The notes below the pieces were generated by a model. It was not told where the DNA came from and made no database searches. It saw nothing but the letters and a program-made list of their open reading frames with translations. Positions 4,009 through 24,838 of a stretch of DNA of 25,251 bases are shown piece after piece. A program made the position numbers and the translations under genes. Each line of letters begins with the position of its first letter. Position 1 is the stretch's first letter. Source of the DNA: Funneliformis mosseae (taxonomy: Eukaryota; Glomeromycota; Glomeromycetes; Glomerales; Glomeraceae); assembly GCA_910592005.1 (NCBI GenBank), contig CAJVPP010000864.1, positions 1 to 25,251 of the forward strand. The letters run 5' to 3'.

Positions 4009-4334
4009 CAGTAATCTCTTTGTGAAATAAAGAAACTTTAACTTTTAATATCGGCTCTATAGTCAGATATTTCAAAACCATTGATGTTTACAAATAATTT
4101 TTATCATTCACGCATATATCCTGGAATTAGAAATTTTAATTCATACTATTCAAGAAATGTTCGTATTGATCAATCCACCCCTTTGAATGTTTCCGATCCG
4201 GAAACTCTATTTGACACCATAATGGTTCAAACAAATTCAAACCTCATCCTTCATCAATTAGTTCAATTTTATTTTACTTGGTAACCATTATCACACACGA
4301 TCTGTTTGATTTTCGCCGAATGAACTATACATTA
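4009..4334. other. Spacer with a weak 67-codon open frame
   Basis: A plus-strand frame from 4081 to 4284 stays open and has a fairly balanced composition, including a stretch QSTPLNVSDPETLFD. It may be another fragment of the broken gene just upstream or of a mobile element. No splice signals join it convincingly, and I assign no function. Confidence 0.2.
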
Positions 4335-4845
4335 AGGTTGGCGGGCAAAACCTGAAGGTTTCGACAGGCATCGAAATTGAAACGTTTGCCAAATTTTTTT
4401 AATTGCAAAAATTTCGACGGTGGCAAAATTTTCGATTGATGAAAAAACTCATCGAAACCTTCTGACATTAAAATACAATTTTTGAAATTTAAAAATTTAT
4501 TATTTTGTTTTTAAGAGATGAGCAAATCGTATATAGCAGGTCACTTTCTTTTGTTTTAATTTTATAAAAGATAAGAAAATTAAATATAGTTAAAGTAAAT
4601 TAATTCTTTATCAAGTTCAATTATCATCTTTCTCCCAATTAGTATTTTCTTCATTTATACTCATGACAGTATACCTATCTTCTTCTTCATTAAACTTTCT
4701 TTTGAAAATCATCATTCTCTTCATAAGGTAATCCTTCTAATTATTCAACAAGTTTCTATGCTTCCAAATTTAAAACTTGCTCGATAAACAATGTGCGAAA
4801 TAGCAATGGTCGGGAGAATATTACAAATTAAAAAATTAAATATTT
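4335..4845 (-). mobile_element. Transposon 3'-end fragment (ORF tail plus terminal region)
   Basis: Read on the minus strand, 4845 to about 4625 shows a decayed coding tail. One frame gives EQVLNLEA, KLVE and LEGLPYEENDDFQKK separated by TAG/TAA codons. After a one-base shift it gives NEEEDRYTVMSINEEN and a stop. The region 4470-4335 that follows is the terminal segment, with several TTTCGA/TCGAAA motifs and GGCAAAA/TTTGCC words. The same order (coding tail, spacer, terminal segment) appears on the plus strand at 24764-25251, so this is one end of a dispersed element. The coding tail resembles the C-terminus of a transposase, but I cannot name the superfamily. Repeated subterminal motifs would suit a hAT-type element. 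Confidence 0.55.
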
Positions 4846-5238
4846 TGGATTATATATAATATATTTCTAAAACTGTGAACTGAAATCAAAAATTTTCTAA
4901 AAAGACAAAACAGAAAGCATGGTTACTTGACAAATCTACTCAATCTCAGCTTTGAAAAAAAGTAGGTGTCCCATTTTATTCTATTAAAAGGCCACGCACA
5001 TTAACATTTTTGGTTCACGTCACCAACCAAAAAATGTTTATATGTAAAAAATTTATCACGTGACTTCGAAGTATAATTCATTAACACTGTTGTATTCAAT
5101 TCTTTCTGCCTGTGAAACATGAAATTTTTAATAAAATTGCTAATGATCGGCAGTGATAATTGCAATATGTAAAATTGCCTCGCGTCAGAATCTCTTTTTT
5201 CTTGGGATTATTATTCTTTAAAAACCTATTTTGCAATA
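4846..5238. other. Spacer upstream of the decayed family gene
   Basis: No supported gene. The minus-strand open frame across 5096-5434 lies opposite the start of the decayed gene and is a shadow of it. Base composition is somewhat less AT-extreme near 5160-5240, just before the ATG at 5239. Confidence 0.4.
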
Positions 5239-8200
5239 ATGAGTAAATATAAACAATATGATGTTTTGTTAATAACAGCAAGAAAATTGGATGAAGAATT
5301 ACATTTTGGAGTATTTGGACGTTTTTGGTGGCAATCATGTAGCCACGAGGATAATACTTTATTATATCCTGTACGCTTAGGATGAAAACTCTTGTTACAC
5401 TTAAGGAAACCAACTTTATAATTACCGTAGTCAAAGGAAATTTGAATTTTATCTTTCGGCCTGGTTTTGTTTATGAAGCAAATGGTATTACAAGTTCTAT
5501 TAATGATACTTCTTCTGGAGCAATAAACTCTTTATATTCAACATTATTCAATTCAAAAACAAGATTTTCTGGTCCATTAATATGTGGTTATAATAATAGG
5601 AAAATTACCAAAGAAATTATGAATGATGTTCCTTTTCAACTATTTATATTAACAATTGGTAAATTGCAGGTGTTTATAGGAATTATGAGAGTTTCTGATT
5701 GTAAGGTTTTAAAATATGTAGGATTGAAATATATGTCATCTTTTATTTATCAAATTGGAAAAATACAAACATTATTTGTACAAAGGATTTATCATCATCA
5801 TTGTTCAATAACCTTATACCAGAATGAACAAATATAGTGGTAGTAATCCTAATGAAGTTTGGAAAGAACTTTGGAATAAATTCAATATATTACAAAATTG
5901 GAATGGAAAAACTTTATTTGATATTAATCATGAAAAAACTTAAAATTTAATAAATAGCCTCTGAATACCTTCTTGTATAATTAATGAATGGAATAATAAA
6001 ATTATGATGATACAATTATATAAACATCATTTACACAAATTTACAATTGCTGATGTTTCTTAGTATGAATTTTTACTCAATTGGAAAAAAGAACAATGTA
6101 ATATAATAGAATTATATGGTACTCTTAAAACTATCTATCTGGAAGAATATCAATTTAAGAAAGAGAATTTCGTACTTAGAAAGTGGTATTACATAGTATT
6201 AGATGCACTAATATTACACCATTTAATAAAAATGAATCAGAAGTAAGAAAAATATTTTTTCTAGAAAAAATTTTGAATAAAGCTGAAAATCCAATTGATG
6301 ATAAAAATCTCCTTCTTTATTTATATAAAAACAATTTTCTTAATATATCTATTTTAAATGAATGTTCTAATTCAAATGTAGATAAATTGTGATCTTATTT
6401 TAATGAATCTTTAAAAATAAATAAAGGAGGAATTGATGGAAAAAGAAGAATTTTATCAATAATTGCAGATGATTTTTTATATGAAAAAATTAGAACAAAT
6501 TTATCAGTAAGTTATTTTAACTTATCTAATTAATTATATTTTTAATTATAATTTTTTTATTTATCAACTTTTAATATAAGTTGCTCTAAATACAATTTTC
6601 AATGCTTGTAAATATGCTAGGTTGAATGGTCCTAATACTAATCAAATTGAAAAACCTATAAGAACAATAAATAAACTATCACAAGAAAAATTAGAACAAT
6701 TCTGTAATTTTTTTAAAGATTAAGCAAATGTTATTATATCTTCTTATAAAATAGATACTAAAATCCAAATACCTATTCTTTATTTGAAAAATACAAATAA
6801 AGCACTTTGGGAAAAATTTTACAAAATATATCTAAATGGTTTAAAAAGAATAACTTTTATTGCTAATTAAAAGGGAATTATTATCAATATTAAAAAGATA
6901 TAGGAGAACTTTGCATTATCTGTAATATTTATAAATATAAAGTATTTAGAAATCTGAAAGATTTTATTCAAAAAAAAATTAGTTCAATGGAACTTCAGGT
7001 AAAATTAAACTAAAAATCAATATATAAATGTAAATAAAATACTTACTTTATATTCTATATTATTTTAGCATAAATTTATTCAATGTGTTAAAAATTTATA
7101 ACGTTATCTAAAAAGATCATGTGAATAAAAATTTAAAGTATTAGAAAATAGAATAACTAAACATGATTCTTGCATCAATTATTGTTTATTGTATACTTTT
7201 AGAACTTGTGATGAATTACATACTCAAATATGTAATAAATGTTAAGAATTATTTACTTTTTTTTAATGATCTTAAAGAAATTATCAACTTAACTTCTTAT
7301 AATAATTTGACAAACTATGAAAAGAAACTTATTTACTACCTGTCTTATCAAACAAGAAAAGTTTATTTAAATCCTCAATTTAATATAACAATAATAGAAT
7401 TAGATAAAAAAGAAGCTATTCTATTAGTAGATTATAAAATGAAAATCTTATCACAAACTGTAAGATAAATCAAATAGAATTTTTATAGTACAAAAGAATA
7501 ATTTCTATATTTTATTTTAGTTTATACAAATCTATTGAAAATAATCAAATCTGTATTGAAGCATTTAATTACTGGTTATATGATTCAAAGTAAGATGTAT
7601 AGTTCATAGCTTCATCTTTATATAGTGTAATTGAAGCTCTTAATGAAAACCTGAATAGATAAGTATTATTTAAGATAATGATCTACATTATCATAATTCT
7701 GAGTTGATAATAATATTAAGTTATTAGAAAGAATAGTATAATATAAGAGTAAATAAGTGGATATTTTTAGAAGTGGGAGAATCAAAAACTGCTATTAATT
7801 CAAATCATATACAGGTATAATAGTTTACTTACTTAAATTATTTAAATTAATGATTGAATTATTTAGATTTCACATTCAATTAAAAGGCAAGTTAAACTTG
7901 GATTTGAAATGAGAAATGGTGAAAATATTCAAGAAGCAATTAAAAACATTGCTAGAATTTATGTAGCTCATTTAGAACTTTATAGAGATGATGATAAATT
8001 TATTTTGTTAAAAACTAAATTATTTAATATATATACTATATATTTAACATATTATCTAAAATAACAAAAAGAAAATAAAGGAGATAAAATAAAAACAATT
8101 CCTGAAATTTCAAATTATTTTGAATAGAGATGGCTGAATGAAGAAGAATTAGATAAATGTATACAAGTAAGAGCTTAACTCATATTAGTAAATGAAAAAC

Positions 8201-9081
8201 CTTTACACTAAATCAAATATCTAATTGGATAAAAGATAGAATACATATGATATAGTCATAAATTTCATCACATACTACTCCAAAATCTTCTTAGAAAATC
8301 CTAATATCACATAATTCAAATAAGTATTAGCATTAGTAATTATGTTATATAATAAAATTAACATAAAAATATATCAAGTTTTGTTCTCAGATGTTAATGT
8401 AAAAAAGCTAAAGGTGAAACAATTGCAAGAGGAGTTAGAAAATTGAGAAATAATAACAAATAAAAAAGAAAGTCACGTAAAAATAATAAAAATGTTAGAT
8501 TATAAGATGGTAAAAGAAACACAGACTAAAAAAATCAGTAGATTTTAAAAAGTGATTTTTATTTTATAAAAGATTCAAATAATAAATTTTTATTATAGAT
8601 AGTAGTAATACATAAATATCAGAAAGAATACTAAATGATATTACTAATATATCATAAAATAAGTAAGAAATTATATAAAAATCTAATGCTATATTGTCAA
8701 TCTTAACTGATAGTAATCTTACAGATGTAAATGCATTTCCTTTGTTATGTGATTAGACATTAAAGTATAACTAAAAATATGGTAAAAAAGATTCAGAAAA
8801 AAGAATTGCTTTACAAGTTATAACACTATTAGAATGTTTCTTTTTGGATGGTAATATTTATAAAAATAAAAGAATGAGTGGAAATAATATATAGGATAAA
8901 CTAGTTGAGAAATAGAAACATGATGAATTAGTGCAAAATGTTGAAATTCTAGAAGTATTCTCTATAAATAATTGGATAATAAGATTTGCTATCTAAAAAG
9001 AACTTATCTGAGCAAGCTATAGCTAGATTTTCAAAGTTTAAAGCAAAATTACTATCTTATACTGTTTTAAAATATCAGTAA
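5239..9081 (+). pseudogene. Decayed copy of a dispersed gene family, DDE-transposase-like core
   Basis: The frame opens at ATG 5239 (MSKYKQYDVLLITARK) and shifts at about 5383 into a 151-codon open stretch. It can then be followed through about nine frame changes to a TAA at 9079. Intron-like segments lie at 6507-6580, 6999-7068 and 7815-7866. Recognisable blocks include ITPFNKNESE, DGKRRILSIIADDF, CIICNIYKYKVF, HDSCINYCLLYTFRTCDE, LLVDYKMKIL (Asp codon 7430), HYHNSELI (Asp codon 7674), KWIFLEVGESKTAINSNH and ISHSIKRQVKLGFEMRNGE. A Cys/His-rich stretch at about 6907-7242 may bind zinc. The spaced Asp, Asp and Glu blocks suggest a DDE transposase-derived fold, which is inference. From memory this is a high-copy Rhizophagus family of unknown function; I could not check this. 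There are about 32 in-frame TAA/TAG and 2-3 TGA codons, so it cannot give a full product under the standard code. Confidence 0.7.
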
Positions 9082-12000
9082 AATACTGAGAATCTCACAT
9101 TTTAACAAAGTTTAAGTCAAAATTTTTTGTATAAAAATTTCAATTAAATTTATAATACAAAAATCCAAGTTTGATTATATTATAACAAGGGTTTTTTTTA
9201 ATATTACACTATTAAGTAGTACTTTAACATTATCAAACTTTATTGCAATTCTATACATTTTATTATATGATCGACATAAATTTCACCAAATTTATGTAAT
9301 GATTTTTTACAGTTTACTGTAAATCATAAATTAATCATTTTTGCCTTAACTCAGCTCTTTACAATTTATTGTTATTAACTCAAATAATTGCTAATTATTA
9401 AATGCTAATTAATTAAATTACACTAAAATAATAAATGAAAAATAAAATAAATAAAAATATTAAAACAATAAGTCAAACAAAATTTATGAATTTTATGAAG
9501 TTAAAATTACGAAAGTGAATATTGCAAGGAAAAAAAGGAAAGAATTAAGGTATATGTATAAATAAAGGAAAATAAAATATACTAAAAAGAATTTAAAGAA
9601 CTTGCCAAAATTTCAAGTGACTTAAAATATAAATATTAAAAATTTTAATTAGAACGACTTGCATTCTAACAATATAGTATCCTAACAATATAGTCAAAAT
9701 TGATTAACCAATATGATTATAAATGAAAATTATGATTTTTCAGATAGAATGTATTAATACAAATAAACACTGATTGACTTATAATCATAGTTCTCATCAT
9801 TTTTTGATTTACTTGATTTTTTATACTTCTTTTTTAATTCTCTTTTTACTTTTGGAAATGATTATAAATAATTAATTCTTAAAAGTTAACTAATTATATC
9901 ATTATAATTTTACATATAATATTTTTTTATTAATAAATAATAAATCCTGTGTTTTTAAAATTTTAAAGTTACATAAACTGAAATACTAATTTTCCTGATG
10001 ATTTTATATCAGAAGCATTTTTGTATTATATCATATTATAATAAAACTCAAATAAGAAATAAAAATAAAAGAATTTATATCTAACGCTAATATGACTGAA
10101 TGACTGTGATGAGATTCAATCTGATTGTCACTTTTGATTGCTTAATAAAATTTTAAAATTAATTAGTTTTATTAAATTAAGTATATAATAAGTTAAATTT
10201 TATCACTATTAATTCTTTACCTCCTATTATACAATTATTTCATTTGATCTTGTATTAAAGGAGCATTAGCATTACTATGTTAAAATATTAATATTTAATA
10301 TTATAATATCATTTAAGGTTTTTTTTTAAGGTAAGGTTACTGAAAATTTAAATATTTTCAAATTAGTTATACTATTCTGCCACAATTACTTTTTTATAAA
10401 CTATACTAATTTTGGATCAAATGTGTATACCTGATAGTTAAATAATTCTTTATTCATTTGATTATGAATTTAATCTTTCAATTAGATAATACTTTTATAA
10501 TTTAATACTATGAATAAATAATAGTTATTTACCACAAGATATGAGATATCTTAGCTGTCATTTTTTTTTCTAATAAGCATATTATATGACTTATTAAAAT
10601 AAATATTGGCAAATATTTATAGAATTGGTAATAAATAAATTTCATGATTCTAGTAATGCATTATTTGTTTAAAATAATCAATTTTAACTTTAAAAATTGC
10701 AATTTACATTTAATTAAAATAAAGAATATCCTGTATTTTTTGAGTTTATTTATGCAATAGTAACTACTCATATTTTTCTCATTTGATAATAATAAGAATA
10801 AACTTCTTCCTCTTTTTCATATTTTGTTGTCTTCTATTTGCAACATATAAATCATAAAATAACTTCACATTCTTTTATACAACTGAAAAAATGCATTTAC
10901 ATCTAAACCATCAAGTCAAATAATCAATATATTACTTTTTTCTTTTTCTATTCTCTTTTATTGTATTTTAAAAACTTATATTTATTAATTATTTAATAAA
11001 ATTTTGCATATCGTTACATTTTGTTTTTTATAAAGATGTCTAATATCATTTTAAAAGCTGCCAATTATATTGTTGATACTTTTACTTTTACTCTTATTAT
11101 CTTTTTCTAAATAAATTAAAATAATGATTATTATCTCATTCATTAATGTTATATTATTTATTATAATATATGATTAAAATCTTTCTTATTGAATAAAATT
11201 TCTAAAATTTCTTTTCTTTCTGGATTCTTTAGCAGAATATCTTATTATCTAAGGTATTTTTAACTAATACTTTTATTTTATTCATAAATTAAGTAATAAA
11301 CATTTTTTTTAATCCTTTAACATAATAATTTTATTCTCAGAATTTACAACTTTAGAGTTTTTCTCTTTCTACTAGTATATGGAAATCATTTGCTATTAAA
11401 AACTTTTCATTTTTCTATAAGATGAGTAAAAACTTAAAACTCTCACTTTTACTTAAGCTTAGTGATAACCTTTTTTATAATACTTAAAAACTAAAATTTT
11501 ATCCATTAATTAATAATCCAATAATAATAATAATAAAATAACATTTCTTTAATTTTAATTATCTCAGCATCTAGTTATCCATTTGAGATAAAATATATAT
11601 TATTATAATACTCTTAAATTAATAAATACATTAATACTATTTTTATGAAATTATGATCAGTAGATCATGAGAAATTCACGTCTGAGATCTGTTTATTCCA
11701 ATTGGATCTCCTAAATTAATGAAGAGATTAATATTTTCTAAAGCATTTTCTGATTCTATATAAATATTTATCCTAAACTTGATAAGATTAGCTTTATCAC
11801 TGTAATATTTAAATAATTTAAACCTTTTATTGATCTTACGAAAATTAAATGTCCTATAATTTTAATTGGTACTGAAGAAGATAAACTAATTGATTTAAAA
11901 ATTATAAAAGAAATTTCTATTAAGCTTAAATGCTACATTATTAGAATAACAAAGCTTATTTGCTAATAAGAAGTTTAAATCAGAAACTATAAAAGAAATA

Positions 12001-15797: not shown

Positions 15798-18700
15798 TTA
15801 AGAATTTTCCTCCTCAGCCCAATCCGCTGGATTTATATTTATCATCAATGAATCATCAATGCAAGTTCTTGATGAAATTACTGTGCTTTCTGATGAAAGT
15901 GTTGAAGAAACTAGAGAGCTTGAGCTTGCTGATGCTGATGAAAGAGTTAAGGAATCAATTGTATCTGACATCGAAAGTGTTTGAAAGAATTTCCGAAAAT
16001 AAGGATTAATAATTAGTAAAAAAAAAAAAAAAATGCATAAAGTTACTTTACCTTCATTTTCAATTAACTTCTCCAATACCTCATAAACATATTCAACAGT
16101 ATGTCTTTTTTCAGGTTCATTATCCCAACATTTATTATATAACTCATAATATTCATTAGGAGTCTCTTGCACTCTTTCTTGCTTATTTCCTGACAAAATT
16201 AAATGATGATATTCAAAAGGAGGTTTACCGCTTGATATTTCCCATAATAATACTCCTAAACTATAAACATCAGAAGATTTTGTATAAGGACCCGCCATTA
16301 AAACTTCGGGAGCAACATATGGAAGTATACCAAATATACCGTCATGTAGATTTGTTACTGTACACATACTTTTTGAATTACCAAAATCCGTAATTTTTGC
16401 TTTTCCATGATGAACTAATATATTTTTAGCATGCTAGAAATGAAATTTATTATTAGCAAAACAACAATAAAATGTAATAAATAGAATACAATAATTCTTA
16501 AATTTACTTACGAGATCTCTATGCAAAATATTTTCTTTATGCAAAAAATATAATCCATTTGTAATATCTAAAGCCAATCGAAGTTTTTTATTCCAATCAA
16601 GACTCAAAAATTTTTTTGAAAGATACTTTCTTAAATCCCCTTCATTAGCACATTCCATAACGATACAATAGTCACCATCTAAACCTAAAATAATATAAGT
16701 TGTTCAAGTGTGCTAAAATAAATGAATATTAAATCTCAAAACTTACTTTTACTTATTCCTAAAACTCGGATAATATTTTCACAAATATGTGCTCTACTTT
16801 GTAATTGTATTTCATGTCTAAATGCTTCCCACTTCTTATATTTAATATCTGATGTAATAAATAATTTTTTATATGCTACATGTTTATGAGTTTTAGACCA
16901 ATATGCTTGATGCACTAATCCAAAATTTCCTGCTGATAACTTTTTATGAGAATTAAATTCGGACCATGCTATTGATTTAATAACTTTTCGTTTAATCGAA
17001 TCTTCAATCCATTCCTTTGCTTTATTTTCTAATTCATCAACGGATTCAGCCTGTGATATGTAAATATTTTTTGGAACTAAACTTTGAGAAAATCCATTTT
17101 GTTGGTAACTACCAGTTAATTCATTAAGTTCATTGAAAATAGTGGGAAAACTTGAACGCTCCCGTGAGTCATGATGCCAATCTAAGTAAAAAATTTTTTA
17201 ATCTAATACCTTTCTTTTTTGAAAAATATTTTTAATATTATATTAAGCTTACTATTTTTAATGATTTCAAAATATTTTTCTTGAAAACTTTCATCATTAT
17301 TTGATCTGCTTTCTAATGTCTCCCTGTCCTTGTTTAGAACATGATTCTTTATTTTACGTACATTCCAACCTTGATAAGGAACTTTTTCAAAGGCAAGCTC
17401 CCACATTAACATACCAAAGCTACAAATTAAAATATATTGTATTAATAAAGGTTATAATTTATGTTAACAAAAGGAGCTTGCAAATACCTAAATGCTTCAC
17501 ATTTTACATCATATCGATGAAATCTAAAATATTTAATTTTTTCTGGGGCCATCCAATTAATAACATCGTCTAAATTTGGTATTGATTCATAAAAGGTTTT
17601 TTTAGGTTTAGAGACCCCATCGAACATTATATGTGCGCATTTAAAATTTGTAATTTTAGGTTCTAAACGTGCTGTAATCATAATGTTTGCGCAACGAATA
17701 TCATGATGAAGAATAGAACAAGAATGCAGAAAAATGATGCCACGACAAATACCAAGAGCAATAGAAACCTAAATAAAAGAATAAAAAATTTTTATGAATA
17801 TATTTTTTAAAAAAAAATTATACATTACTTACCTTTGTAGTCCATGAAATATCATATATATTATAAACATCACAAAGGTTTCTTAATTCAGCCCATTCAA
17901 ATATCGTTACCAATTGATCATCAATATGGGAGAGTCCATAGAATTTCAAAATGTTATCAGAGTAACGAAGTTTTTCTAACATAGTAAAATGAGCTATAGT
18001 TTTCATGAAATCATCATCTTGGATTATAGTGGGAGTATAAGCCACGTCTACACTAAATTTTATGGACTTTTTCACAATCCCACGATCAGTTGGTTTATCT
18101 CCAAGAGGATCTGTAAGTTCATGTGGCTCTATTGTCGTTGTTTTAATGGTCTATATTCAAAGTAAGAAGAAATAATTAATTAAAACAATCTTTATCTAAA
18201 AATAAAATAATTTTGAAATAACTTGCCGGTTGATCAATTGTCGTGATGTTCAAGTCTCCCATAAAGTTCTCAACATTATTAATCAATCTATAAAAAATAT
18301 GTGATATTGTAATTATATTTTTTGTAATATCTTGTAATTGAGAGATATCTTTTATAAAATCCCTGATTTCTTCCATTACTTCAATAAATTTTACATAATC
18401 TATAATAAAATTGCCAGTAGTCTTAATGGTCTTAATAGCAATTTCAGCCATATCAACTCTATCCATTAATACATCGCAAATTTTTTTGTTATTTTGAGCT
18501 GCTTTATAAATTTTATTAATTTCGCGTATTTCTGTGTCAATTGTAGTAATCCAATACTTTTGTAATAATTCAATAGCTTCAGGATTATAAGCTAACACAG
18601 CTAATCTTAAATATTTCATGCCAAGTGGTACATTTTTAGTCACACCCAATTTACCATTAATATATAAATCGCCTAGATTAAATTGAGCCGTATTATTATT

Positions 18701-21700
18701 ATTATCTGCAGATTTCGTAAGATATTCAATAAATACCGGTAAGTTAATTCCATTATTTTCAATTAAACTAAATGCATATCGTAACTGTGCATCTGCAAAT
18801 CCGTCATCAGCAGCTGCTTTAAATAATTTTGATGCTTCTTCTTGATCTTTTTGATCAGAAGAGTTTTCCCATAAATAATATCCTTTCCAATATTTGGCTT
18901 TGGTATTACCCAACTCTGCGTGTGCATTAAAACATTCCCATGCTGTCGCATAGTCGCTTCTTCTATAAGCTTTAATACCTTCCTCAAGTGACATTATTTC
19001 TTGCACAGCACTAATAGAGAATTCCATATCAAAATCTGGCAAATCTAACCCTCCTATATCGCTAACGGAAACTGCTTTTGATCCATCCAAATCTAAAGGT
19101 TTAAGGGCAAGTGAAGTATTGTACCCTGAAGAGCAATGTGTTGTATATAAGTCGTGTAAATTCAAGAAAATTTGTTGTAATGAAGCTCGAATTTGAGGAT
19201 CATCTTGCCAAGCTAATTGAGGTCAAAAAATTTATAATTTTACAAATTTGCATCAAAATATTAATATAAATATATATATATGGATCTCTTACCCGAAACG
19301 ATAATTTTCGCATAACTTTTTTGGAGGTTTTGAATATCAGGATTTTCTCCACCAAAAGTAATCTTTTCTCGTTTGTTAGACAAAACATGTTCTTTTATTT
19401 TAGCCATGTCCCAACGTTCATAGGGAATCTTTTCAAATGCCAATTCCCAAAGTAGCATTCCAAAACTTTTTTTTTTTTTAAAAGTAAGAAAATTTTAATA
19501 ATTTTAACCTAATAACAATAGAAATAAACAATTGTAATATTCTCACCTGAAAACTTCGCATTTCATGTTATATCGCTGATTACCACCATTTCTCAATCTC
19601 TCGGAAGCAAGCCAATGCACAATTTCAGATGTATCAAAAATAAAACTTGTGTCATCATTATCATAAACACGTGTAAATCCAAATTTTGCAATTTTAGGTT
19701 CCAAACGCGAAGTCATCATAATGTTTTCACAACGGATGTCGTGATGAAGCACGGAGCAGGAATGTAAGAAAATGATTCCGCGACAGATACCAAGAGCAAT
19801 AGATACCTTAATAAATGATAAAAGTTGAATTAAAAAAAAATTATAATAATAAAAAATCATAATTATAAACCTTTGCAACCCAAGAGATTTCGTATGTATT
19901 ATAAACTTCGCGTAGGTTTCCATGTTCGGCCCATTCAAATACCATGACCGGGTGACTTTCGACATAAGAGAATCCATAAAATTTCAAAATGTTGGGAGAA
20001 TCTTGAAGTTTTCCTAAAATAGATAGTTGAGCTTGAAACCATTGAGCTTTCTGGGAATTATCATCTTGTAATTTAGTTGGAATACAAGCGACGTCTATAC
20101 TCTGCTTTAAGCATTTCCTTAAAGTATAAGGTTCCTCTTTCCCACGACGATCAGATGCCTTCCCTCCAAGGGGTTCAGTAAGCTCATTTGGTTCTATTTT
20201 GTTTGCTTTAATAGACTCAGGTATCGGTAGATATCTTTTTTGAGTGCTTTCTATTTGATTCTTAATTAATATGACTTCTTGGAGAACTGTATTAATTTGG
20301 TTATTATCAGAAACAATACCACCTCCAATCCTTTCCAAAAACTATATTAAAAAAAAGAATTATATTTTATTTTAAAAAAAAAAAAAAAAATGTCCACAGT
20401 TTTATAGAATAACTTACTCTGGACATTTCGACTATATCTTCATTAAGAGCCTTCCGGTCAATTTTACGCTGTTCTCCATTGTCAATTGTCGTTGTGAAAT
20501 TCAAAACGTCTATAATGATATCAAAATCGTATACTAAATCATTAAAGGTATCTTTAATAGAACAGGAGTGTAAGAATTTATTGTAACCCTTTAGTTGGGA
20601 GACATCTATAATAAAGTTTTTAATTCTTTTCATGATTTCAATCAATTTTATAAAAGCTAAATAATATTCTTTATTACGAAGAAGATTTTCCTTCCATTTT
20701 CTTCTCTTTAATATATAATCAACTATTTGAACTCTATCCATTAAAGCATTACAAATCTTTTTGTTATATTCAATATCTTCATAAATCCAAAAAATTTTAT
20801 CAATTATGGTTGTAACAATCGCAATATATGGTATATAAGGTTTAACGGCTTCTCCTAAAGCTCCTACAGTCTCTAAAGTTCTTTGATTTTCCATAGCTCC
20901 TTCGGTTCCTTCAGTTCGTATAGTATCTACATTTGCTTCGGTACCTACAACTCCAACAGCACAGTCAGTCATCATAGTCTTTACGGTTACATCGGTACTT
21001 ACAACTTCTACGGCAACTTCAGTTCTTTGCGTATCAACAGCTCTCTCAGATCCCATAGTCTCTGCGGTTTTATCGGTTCCTTGATTACCCATAGTCTTGG
21101 TTCCTTCGGTTTCTACAATTTCTTCGGCTTCAAGAGCTGCCTTTTATTAATCAAAGAAAAGAATTATAAAATATTGATAAAGTTATAGAATTATGAATAA
21201 AAATTTACCTTCGCCATTTCGGAAGAATCTTCAGTAAGGGCTAGTTGATCAATTCTGCGTTGCTCTTTATCGGTGAAATTCAAATCCTTCATCACGGACT
21301 CAAAATCACTAACTAAACCATTAAATTCATAGAATTTTTTGTAAAATAGTAATTTGGAGACATCTTTAATAAAATCTCTAATTTCTTTCATGACATTAGT
21401 AAACCTTGCAAAAGCCAAATAATATTTCATGTTGCGAAAATTTTTTTCGTTCTCTTGTTTCCTTCTGCTTAAAATTTTAATAAAAATTTCAGCAATATAA
21501 ACTCTATCCATCAAAAAACTACAAATTTTTTTATTATTAGATTCCACACCATCATAAATTTTGATAATATCATCAATTAAAGTTGTAACAACCGCGATTA
21601 ATTGTAAATATGGTTTAATGGCTTCTTCTACGGTTCCCGAAGCTTTAAAAGAGGTCTTTGTAATTTCGATACTTTTGGAAATTTCTGCTCCAAAAATAAA

Positions 21701-21709
21701 TTCTGACAT
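15798..21709 (-). CDS. Giant fusion: 3 MLKL-like helical domains, 2 pseudokinases, Sel1, kinase
   Basis: Exons, 5' to 3' on the minus strand: 21709-21209, 21140-20418, 20341-19871, 19806-19547, 19465-19293, 19212-18227, 18150-17833, 17768-17488, 17419-17253, 17181-16747, 16684-16512, 16433-16052, 15964-15798. They total 5,037 nt and 1,678 residues; all phases agree. I chose the ATG at 21709 because it opens the first four-helix exon. Introns are 62-87 bp. Only intron 6 (18151-18226) is GC-AG. Domain order is four-helix 1, nine-residue repeats, four-helix 2, pseudokinase 1, Sel1, four-helix 3, pseudokinase 2, kinase, Ser-rich tail. The third kinase domain has all catalytic residues, so the protein is probably a cytoplasmic signalling Ser/Thr (TKL-like) kinase. 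MLKL-type architecture suggests a stress or cell-death role, but that is inference. If the GC-AG intron is not used, translation stops at 18176 and a separate downstream gene would be needed. Confidence 0.8.
16052..16960 (-). other. Apparently active kinase domain (residues about 1368-1622)
   Basis: A nucleotide loop SAGNFGLVHQAYW (1376-1388), VAYKKL with Lys 1398, and a candidate helix-C Glu 1417 (FRHEIQL) are present. So are the catalytic loop ILHRDLHAKNIL (Asp 1495, Asn 1500), ITDFGNSKS (Asp 1512), YVAPEVL (Glu 1539) and DVYSLGVLLWEISSGKPPF. All residues needed for phosphotransfer are there. The type is TKL-like by the HRDLHAKN and GVLLWE patterns. A Ser-rich tail follows in the last exon. 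Confidence 0.85.
17114..18150 (-). other. Pseudokinase domain 2 (residues about 1039-1316)
   Basis: This is a paralogue of pseudokinase 1: ILKFYGLSHIDDQL, LHHDIRCANIM (Asp 1167), NWMAPEKIKYF and FGMLMWELAFEKVPYQGW. The lysine motif is VAYTP, without Lys. The DFG position reads NFK (Asn 1185), so metal binding is lost. Introns fall at the same places and in the same phases as in pseudokinase 1. The C-lobe ends WHHDSRERSSFPTIFNELNEL in the exon that also opens the active kinase. Confidence 0.75.
18151..18226 (-). other. GC-AG intron of the kinase gene
   Basis: The donor reads CCG|GCAAGT and the acceptor AATATAG|ACC. GCAAGT is the usual context of the rare GC donor class. Splicing joins ITTIDQP to TIKTTTIEPHELTDP in phase 0, and IEPHELTDPLG matches IEPNELTEPLG in the first pseudokinase module, which supports the join. 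The intron is 76 bp. Confidence 0.6.
18227..18523 (-). other. Four-helix domain 3 of the fusion protein (residues about 940-1038)
   Basis: NNKKICDVLMDRVDMAEIAIK at about 951-970 is followed by YVKFIEVMEEIRDFIKDISQ, as in the first two copies. This copy is shorter at its N-terminus, where it fuses to the Sel1 region. It lies in the same exon as the Sel1 repeats, so no splicing assumption is needed for the fusion. Confidence 0.65.
18551..18988 (-). other. Sel1-type repeat region (residues about 785-930)
   Basis: Helix-pair repeats with the Sel1 pattern (A-x(5)-G, G-x(5)-YW/LG) are visible: EEGIKAYRRSDYATAWECF, AHAELGNTKAKYWKGYYLWE, KLFKAAADDGFADAQLRYAF and LTKSADNNNNTAQFNLGDLY. Sel1 repeats serve as protein-binding solenoids and often follow kinase domains in these fungi. 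Unusually, the exon runs on in frame into four-helix domain 3. Confidence 0.75.
19142..20098 (-). other. Pseudokinase domain 1 (residues about 490-733)
   Basis: The protein-kinase fold is recognisable from ILKFYGFSYVESHPVMVFEW, LHHDIRCENIM, CEVF-S-FGMLLWELAFEKIPY and WQDDPQIRASLQQIF. The VAIK lysine is replaced (VACIP), there is no glycine-rich loop, HRD is HHD (Asp 588) and DFG is KFG (Lys 606). Loss of both the lysine and the DFG aspartate predicts no catalysis, so a scaffold or switch role is more likely. Confidence 0.75.
20427..20864 (-). other. Four-helix domain 2 of the fusion protein (residues about 260-405)
   Basis: This has the same layout as domain 1: VKPYIPYIAIVTTIID, then YNKKICNALMDRV (about 293-304), then YYLAFIKLIEIMKRIKNF. 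It ends at EMSR, matching EMAK at the end of domain 1. Both are followed by a phase-0 intron, which supports exon duplication. Confidence 0.6.
20916..21077 (-). repeat. Coding 27-bp minisatellite: six 9-residue repeats
   Basis: Residues 189-242 divide into six exact 9-residue units: TDKTAETMG, SERAVDTQR, TEVAVEVVS, TDVTVKTMM, TDCAVGVVG, TEANVDTIR. A longer, irregular unit follows (TEGTEGAMENQR). The consensus is T-[DE]-x-x-V-x-[TV]-x-x. The array joins four-helix domains 1 and 2. The periodicity could be a flexible linker or a short beta-type repeat; the sequence does not decide. Confidence 0.7.
21215..21622 (-). other. Four-helix domain 1 of the fusion protein (residues about 30-165)
   Basis: The exon codes an all-helical, amphipathic segment with the signature NNKKICSFLMDRV (about 58-70). 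It is followed by FIKIL, KYYLAFARFTNVMKEI and RDFIKDVSKLL. The NKKIC-x2-LMDRV signature is shared with the two other copies in the same protein. From memory, such segments in Rhizophagus kinases are annotated as similar to the N-terminal helical domain of MLKL; I could not verify this. Confidence 0.6.
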
Positions 21710-23787: not shown

Positions 23788-24489
23788 TAAAACATCATAA
23801 TCTTTACATATACAATATATATACCAGCAAAATTAATAATGATATTTATAAAAATTAAATAAAATACATGTACTTTCAAATATTAAGCCGGCCCCTGGTC
23901 AGCCATGACCATGAACCTAGTTGATTAAAATTAAAAAAATGCGCAAGCTAAAAATTGTAATTTTGAAAATTCATCCGTGGTATTCAATTTATAGAGTCTG
24001 CATGATGTTTTGAAAAGAATATCGAGACTATATAAGTATATTCTTGTCATCTTCATTTTTATGGGGGGTCAATGGTATATTATATTCGTTTAATTTTAAT
24101 TAAAATTATTTAAAAATTATATAAAAAAAGAATAAAAAAATACACTCTATTTATAAAAAAAAAAAAATGATTAAAGTTTTATTCTTAATAAACTATGCAA
24201 TTGTAATAAAATGACTACAAATCTGTATGAAACTTGTACAATTTTTTGCCGATGGGTCGTTTAATAAGGATTGAAACCAAAAATGAACTTCTATAAAATT
24301 TTTGGAAACTTTATATTTTACTATATATTTGATTCAGATATTGTATGTTTAACGGTTATTTTGCGAAAGTTGAAAATTATTTTTCTATTTCAGTTATTTT
24401 CAGACCAATTTCAAACCAACTATTATTTAATATTTTTTTTTCATTTTTTTGTTTTTAAAAATTATTTATATTTATATAAAGTTATAGTT
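23788..24489. other. AT-rich spacer
   Basis: No gene is seen. A small perfect inverted repeat TGGTCAGCCATGACCA lies at about 23897-23912. The open frame starting at 24271 has low-complexity hydrophobic content and runs into the repeat at 24490, so it is not a gene. Confidence 0.4.
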
Positions 24490-24542
24490 GCGTGGCAAAA
24501 CCCTAAACCCATTTGGCAAAAGTCGAAACTTTTCAGAAATTA

Positions 24543-24611
24543 TTTCGACGATTTCGATGAGTTTCGACAGTTTCGATGGGTTTCGACAGGTTTCAACGGG
24601 TTTCGATGGGT
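24543..24611 (+). repeat. Short tandem array TTTCGAYRGG
   Basis: About seven consecutive 9-10 bp units alternate TTTCGACAG and TTTCGATGGG variants. This is far more GC-rich than its surroundings. Subterminal arrays like this are typical transposase-binding regions in several DNA-transposon groups; that role here is inferred. Confidence 0.65.
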
Positions 24612-24838
24612 CTCAAAAGTTACGACAGTTTCGATAACAACTTTGCGAATTTGACGGTTTAACAAGTTTATTGTAATACAATGTAGGATATAAAAAACGA
24701 TTTTTATTTTTTTTGATTTTTATTTTAAATTAGAACAAAGTTTTCAAAATAATACATTATTTTTCGAACAGGTTTTGAAATTAGAAGCACTGTTACTTGT
24801 TGAAGAATTAGAAAAAATTACCTTATGAATAAAATGAT

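Follow-up and report, generated by a model that had tools for sequence, protein, structure and literature searches.

The stretch of Funneliformis mosseae DNA analyzed here (contig CAJVPP010000864.1, positions 1 to 25,251; this whole 25,251-nucleotide stretch is called the window) contains a minus-strand gene predicted to encode a 1,678-residue chain that joins three MLKL-like four-helix bundles (4HB1, 4HB2, and 4HB3), two pseudokinases (PsK1 and PsK2), and an apparently working kinase (K3). The gene is best read as a unit A (4HB-brace-pseudokinase-Sel1), a unit B (bundle, pseudokinase, and kinase), and an extra bundle at the front, because PsK1 groups with unit-A proteins and PsK2 with pseudokinase-kinase proteins, and the domain relationships suggest that it arose by fusion of two Glomeromycotina gene types. 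We regard the gene structure and the homology as nearly certain. The explanation that we propose, a single chain connecting kinase, pseudokinase switches, and bundles, has in our estimate a probability of about 0.4 as a whole. Arbuscular mycorrhizal fungi have a sizeable family of proteins built like MLKL (bundle, brace, and pseudokinase), with kinases fused to them in several genera, and such fusions give a direct, testable hint at which kinase acts on which pseudokinase.

Structure and integrity of the gene

Thirteen minus-strand exons (21709 to 15798) were joined to give 5,037 nt, corresponding to 1,678 codons plus a stop, with matching phases and no internal stop codons. This reassembly from the window bears out the thirteen in-phase exons of an earlier first-pass annotation, and profile annotation of the protein recovered the domain order proposed there: 4HB, 9-residue repeats, 4HB, pseudokinase, Sel1, 4HB, pseudokinase, and kinase. 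The 12 introns are 62-87 nt long and 11 have GT-AG boundaries; intron 6 (18226-18151) is GC-AG with the donor GCAAGT, and intron 3 has an unusual donor, GTTTAT. The features and the evidence for them (HMM, hidden Markov model) are listed below.

15798..21709 (-), whole gene, 13 exons, 1,678 residues; exon assembly, with the same start and stop in the deposited model P0001
21209..21709 (-), exon 1, start codon and 4HB1; family HMM 210 bits over residues 12-181, Pfam MLKL_N 14.9 bits
20856..21140 (-), first part of exon 2, degenerate 9-residue repeat linker; self-match lags
20418..20903 (-), second part of exon 2, 4HB2, with the brace following in exon 3; MLKL_N E 3.6e-5, family HMM 254 bits
20074..20232 (-), 159-bp tract identical to the contig-931 paralogue (L049 1757-1915), compared with 83% identity over the longest alignment
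19154..20209 (-), PsK1, exons 3-6, with VACI, HHDIRCEN, and KFG; profile annotation and motif reading
18530..18997 (-), Sel1-like repeat region, exon 6; family HMM 223-227 bits, Pfam Sel1 30.0 bits (cut-off 30.7)
18227..18568 (-), 4HB3, exon 6; family alignment, AlphaFold2 model with four helices (pLDDT 85, pTM 0.78)
18151..18226 (-), intron 6, GC-AG, at the joint of 4HB3 and PsK2; exon assembly, joined differently in P0001
17123..18144 (-), PsK2, exons 7-9 and ending in exon 10, residues 1041-1313, with VAYT, HHDIRCAN, and NFK
16052..16990 (-), K3 kinase, exons 10-12, with VAYK, Glu, HRDLHAKN, DFG, and APE intact; motif reading, exons 11-12 constrained
15798..15964 (-), exon 13, Ser-rich tail and stop; exon assembly

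The deposited F. mosseae model (P0001, 1,331 residues) shares its start and stop with the 13-exon model, but exon 12 is missing from it entirely, exons 2, 4, 6, and 11 are incomplete, and exon 7 is short by a few residues. Parts of the kinase are also absent from the predictions for the two nearest relatives, P0002 and P0003. When compared with the contig-1614 paralogue found elsewhere in this genome, exons 10, 11, and 12 gave ratios of nonsynonymous to synonymous change (omega) of 0.41, 0.28, and 0.25, respectively. Because exons 11 and 12, which P0001 skips, show constraint, the 13-exon model is probably better than the deposited one. According to the available part of PMC10512289, that study masked the repeats in its assemblies and annotated them using GeneMark-ES with Swiss-Prot alignments as a guide; from the naming style of P0001 we infer that the model stems from this annotation set.

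We considered whether two or three adjacent genes, or a decaying read-through, had been joined wrongly. Such an error would fit the GC-AG intron 6 that P0001 joins otherwise, the several segments that P0001 skips (the kinase C-lobe among them), and the presence in the Sel1 region of Met908, which could in principle initiate a second protein. The decisive joints, however, lie within open exons: exon 6 alone holds the C-lobe of PsK1, the Sel1 region, and 4HB3, and exon 10 alone holds the C-lobe of PsK2 and the N-lobe of the kinase, and we favor one gene for this reason. Exon 7 has no Met before residue 1087, already past the VAIK position of PsK2; the kinase has no Met within exon 10, its first being Met1448 in exon 11; and 4HB3 could start only at Met908 or inside the bundle itself. 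The Funneliformis geosporum protein P0003 preserves the same order with 55-83% identity to the window protein in exons 1-10, and it reads across joints 1/2 and 9/10 and, with six residues missing, across joint 6/7, its kinase prediction being incomplete. P0002 (named F. caledonium) agrees where it is comparable, its prediction lacking 4HB3 and most of the kinase. In the contig-931 paralogue a tail closes unit A after the Sel1 region, at the place where the window gene has helix 1 of 4HB3 in frame. The constraint on the skipped exons 11 and 12 also speaks against a wrong join, and the gaps in P0001 may reflect the repeat-masked annotation if the model indeed belongs to that set. On the basis of the open exons 6 and 10, the Met positions, and the F. 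geosporum order, the joining of separate genes in error was rejected as very unlikely.

Helical bundles and their kinship with MLKL

The helical domains had been named as MLKL-related in the first-pass annotation, and profile searches substantiated that assignment. In a Pfam scan the whole protein matched MLKL_N (PF22215) with 26.0 bits (E 7e-6), just missing the curated cut-off of 27; by exon, matches were obtained for exon 2 (E 1.1e-4) and exon 1 (E 0.019), each below the Pfam cut-off, and none at E ≤ 1 for exon 6. No HeLo match at E ≤ 1 was found in exons 1, 2, or 6. Among the 10 members of the family 4HB alignment, nine matched MLKL_N at E ≤ 0.1 (best 7.5e-11); other helical families matched fewer members, namely IFT46_B_C (5/10, best 2.2e-5), DHC_N1 (3/10), and HeLo (PF14479; 3/10, best 0.00068). 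Searched against the PDB, a profile of unit A found full-length MLKL as its best match (129 bits, compared with 104 for the top non-MLKL chain), and the match (4btf, then 6lk5) was contiguous over 448 profile positions, from the bundle through the brace and the pseudokinase. A profile of the 4HB only also ranked MLKL first, at a modest E of 0.0023, and MLKL accounted for the first seven of the 12 chains listed.

Structures were predicted for 4HB3 and for P0062. The AlphaFold model of the latter, an entire unit, had a pLDDT of 60 and was not used. The predicted four helices of 4HB3 are compatible with the MLKL fold, as the first-pass annotation had anticipated; the first Foldseek row was the MLKL executioner domain (prob 0.99, TMq 0.62, E 0.16), and the matches also included 6ka4 and the CBL helical domain. 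Because this structural ranking ties MLKL with other kinds of bundle, the case for kinship rests on the profiles, by which it is strongest for 4HB2 and weakest for 4HB3. The contiguous MLKL alignment places a brace between 4HB2 and PsK1, and no brace lies between 4HB3 and PsK2. Helix 1 of 4HB3 continues out of the last Sel1 repeat, and the usual N-terminal stretch is absent. The third bundle is probably structural in role; it is the least likely killer of the three and may not be an executioner. The earlier proposal of three MLKL-like bundles is thus upheld by profiles and fold, but three executioner domains are an overstatement, because 4HB3 lacks both the N-terminal stretch and the brace.

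Between 4HB1 and 4HB2, residues 168-262 showed an excess of self-matches at lags 3, 9, 12, 18, and 27 (p 0.0005-0.002, uncorrected, from 2,000 shuffles and 29 lags). The 9-residue repeats noted earlier are therefore real as periodic self-matches but degenerate, and Tandem Repeats Finder listed no array in this linker.

The window protein resembles MLKL (4btf, 6lk5) in the order of N-terminal four-helix bundle, brace, and pseudokinase and in its degenerate DFG motif, where two members of the fungal family have GFE, as do both MLKL chains in the alignment. It differs in the Sel1 region added after the pseudokinase, the duplicated and fused units, the extra 4HB, and the apparently active kinase. 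An animal MLKL orthologue would be a single 4HB-pseudokinase that ends after the pseudokinase, whereas here the Sel1 region, units, and kinase follow. The plant proteins AtMLKL3 (6ka4) and wheat Pm13 likewise pair a 4HB with a kinase-like domain, but they are single units for which the available accounts describe no Sel1 region and no extra fused kinase. The fungal HeLo/HELL proteins (HET-S, HELLP) belong to a related bundle superfamily; by comparison, Pfam HeLo matched 3/10 family members, and the two simple RHIM-like patterns that were sought are absent from all 1,678 residues. According to the available part of a 2025 review (PMC12881547), HELL domains in fungi are in some cases found alongside kinase or pseudokinase domains. 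MLKL homologues (matches to TCDB 1.A.105) with Sel1 were reported in Glomeromycotina only (PMC8778642, available part), and unit A of the window gene appears to be of this kind. The same portion of that paper says nothing of kinase motifs that have degenerated, of units in tandem, or of fusion to an active kinase, and no description of the fusion, the tandem units, or the family-wide loss of DFG was recognized in searches of the open-licence literature.

Kinase-like domains and origin of the fusion

Against two Pfam kinase models the whole protein gave E values of 1.7e-111 and 7.6e-103, with three stretches in each case. Both PsK1 and PsK2 lack the DFG Asp and the VAIK Lys. K3 retains all five residues checked (VAIK Lys, αC Glu, HRD Asp, Asn, and DFG Asp), and by these motifs it is apparently a working kinase; the claim of two pseudokinases and one active kinase holds at the level of catalytic residues. 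PsK2 and K3 form a tandem pseudokinase-kinase on one chain, joined within exon 10.

For the wider family, domains were sorted as pseudokinase or kinase by the better score of two profiles of our own, and motifs were counted in domains of at least 200 residues with P0001 excluded. The 115 pseudokinase domains, among which near-duplicates remain, include three from proteins without a detected 4HB (P0025-P0027). Asp was found at the DFG position in none of the 113 readable domains (Asn in 94, Lys in 15, Gly in three, and Glu in one), a count not fully independent of the sorting because the pseudokinase profile was built from unit-A proteins. The VAIK Lys was kept in 85/113 and the HRD Asp in 106/115, the latter a further difference from MLKL. 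Thirty kinase domains were available, 23 from 4HB proteins (that of the window included) and seven from proteins without a detected 4HB; 21 had all five catalytic residues, four were degenerate, and five were gapped.

The named relatives came from Funneliformis, Rhizophagus, Glomus, Diversispora, Entrophospora, Geosiphon, Ambispora, Acaulospora, Gigaspora, and others, and three relatives were metagenome proteins. Placement in Glomeromycotina was confirmed for three species, F. mosseae among them, and we take the remaining named relatives to belong there as well. The 14 control genomes, of which the nine that are named are all prokaryotes, have little bearing on other fungi. We annotated the first 28 of 61 matches (long proteins) and then 70 new proteins of 88 matches; because the searches were seeded with the window protein, limited by length, and favor fusions, the resulting counts of architectures are not frequencies. 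The commonest layout was 4HB-PsK-Sel1 without a kinase (43 of the 70 newly annotated proteins), and a pseudokinase-kinase layout, with or without a detected 4HB, was rarer. A kinase and a 4HB-pseudokinase occurred on one chain in 18 of the 28 long proteins, with the kinase in front in 12 and behind in six, the latter including P0001 (the deposited copy of the window gene), P0002, and P0003. Judged from these predicted chains, kinases are joined to the 4HB-pseudokinase module differently in other lineages. The MLKL-like multi-kinase chain first described is real but no isolated oddity; its relatives share the units and the kinase fusions.

A FastTree analysis of 118 domains of at least 190 residues (P0001 included, midpoint-rooted) placed PsK1 in a clade of six (support 0.98), all followed by Sel1, and PsK2 in a clade of eight (support 1.0), all followed by a kinase; P0001 is included in both. 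The two pseudokinases also fall inside a wider clade of 17 (support 0.89), which makes an older duplication likely. A recent tandem duplication as the source of the two pseudokinases was rejected on account of their separate supported clades.

Eight family loci read in the F. mosseae genome were single units, seven with Sel1 and one ended by the end of its contig. The gene on contig 1614 has a pseudokinase-like domain, with NFL in place of DFG, joined in one exon to a K3-like kinase; the first domain matches the pseudokinase profile weakly, and the kinase shares 58-76% identity with K3, depending on the exon. At the same locus (L061, L062) another kinase lies next on the same strand. On contig 1390 (L050 4415-5359) a kinase lies ∼1.1 kb downstream of a 4HB-PsK-Sel1 unit, on the same strand and in a separate frame. 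Contig 2782 has tail-to-tail family matches at 4201-5962 (+) and 7431-9678 (-), with a 4HB seen on the minus-strand set only. P0022 and P0023 of Rhizophagus irregularis have four weak 4HB-like matches, followed by a pseudokinase and a kinase intact in its catalytic residues.

Proposed mechanism and change in PsK1

We propose that the product acts in signalling as a single chain, whose C-terminal kinase would be activated by proximity or by an input on the Sel1 region, the repeats, or PsK1. The active kinase would then phosphorylate or otherwise switch pseudokinases, either those of its own chain or those of unit-A paralogues, and the freed N-terminal bundles 4HB1 and 4HB2 might oligomerize at membranes in the manner of MLKL bundles. 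Such a protein would likely serve to shut down a hyphal compartment locally, in a necroptosis-like way, during nonself or parasite recognition. The occurrence in several genera of a kinase fused to a 4HB-pseudokinase module speaks for a functional partnership between the two, not for its outcome. Necroptosis-like action is a fair inference from the domain content, and the killing mechanism itself is a guess that we hold only tentatively. As in the RIPK3-MLKL pair, an active kinase would act with a 4HB-pseudokinase, but the animal components are two proteins, according to the available accounts, and here they lie on one chain without a simple RHIM-like pattern and with a phosphorylation that is hypothetical.

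A pseudokinase beside a kinase regulates it allosterically in JAK and in plant tandem kinase proteins. By analogy, the window protein could be a signalling receptor without an executioner, in which the pseudokinase regulates the adjacent kinase and the bundles serve oligomerization or docking; this is a real possibility, though one we would not bet on. Unit B is built around the PsK2-kinase pair, which in P0082-P0086 (not all of them complete) is found with no 4HB detected, and folds of the same shape include bundles that do not kill, such as the CBL helical domain. Set against these points, unit A is nearer to MLKL than to any other PDB chain, brace region included, and the predominance of 4HB-PsK-Sel1 proteins without a kinase (43/70) better suits a switchable effector than a kinase regulator.

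The comparison of the window protein with P0002 showed 92-100% identity in scored 80-residue windows, except for those starting at residues 361-641 (52-89%). Among scorable windows, residues ∼400-650 (exons 3-4), in PsK1, formed the sole strongly diverged block; this is a comparison of one pair, in which eight windows were left unscored for want of aligned residues. Exon 3 differs from the contig-931 paralogue by a synonymous divergence (dS) of 0.04 and a nonsynonymous divergence (dN) of 0.07 (omega 1.79), and the 159-bp identity within PsK1 probably reflects gene conversion, in either direction. In PMC10512289, as far as available, F. caledonius isolate UK204 groups with F. mosseae by ribosomal DNA. 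The confinement of divergence to the PsK1 region and the presence there of the 159-bp tract would suit a nonself-recognition sensor or bait, with PsK1 as a fast-exchanging recognition surface and the remainder as a signalling chain. We consider this unlikely, as the pattern comes from a single pair with eight unscored windows and a predicted protein, and conversion between paralogues can be neutral and run either way. A fuller version of the single-chain proposal, in which a RIPK3-MLKL-type pathway is condensed into one polypeptide, the kinase firing the switches, the bundles being released, and PsK1 having diversified by conversion for nonself rejection, strikes us as rather improbable. The gene family offers a route to asking whether the bundle-pseudokinase switch predates animals, and it could make mycorrhizal fungi accessible to experiments on cell death and on the recognition of nonself.

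Across the window, nothing exceeded the Rfam thresholds, and seven other open reading frames had no Pfam match above the cut-off. A 128-residue open frame at 24268-24654, with no Pfam match, contains a TTTCGACG-type tandem repeat (24543-24616).

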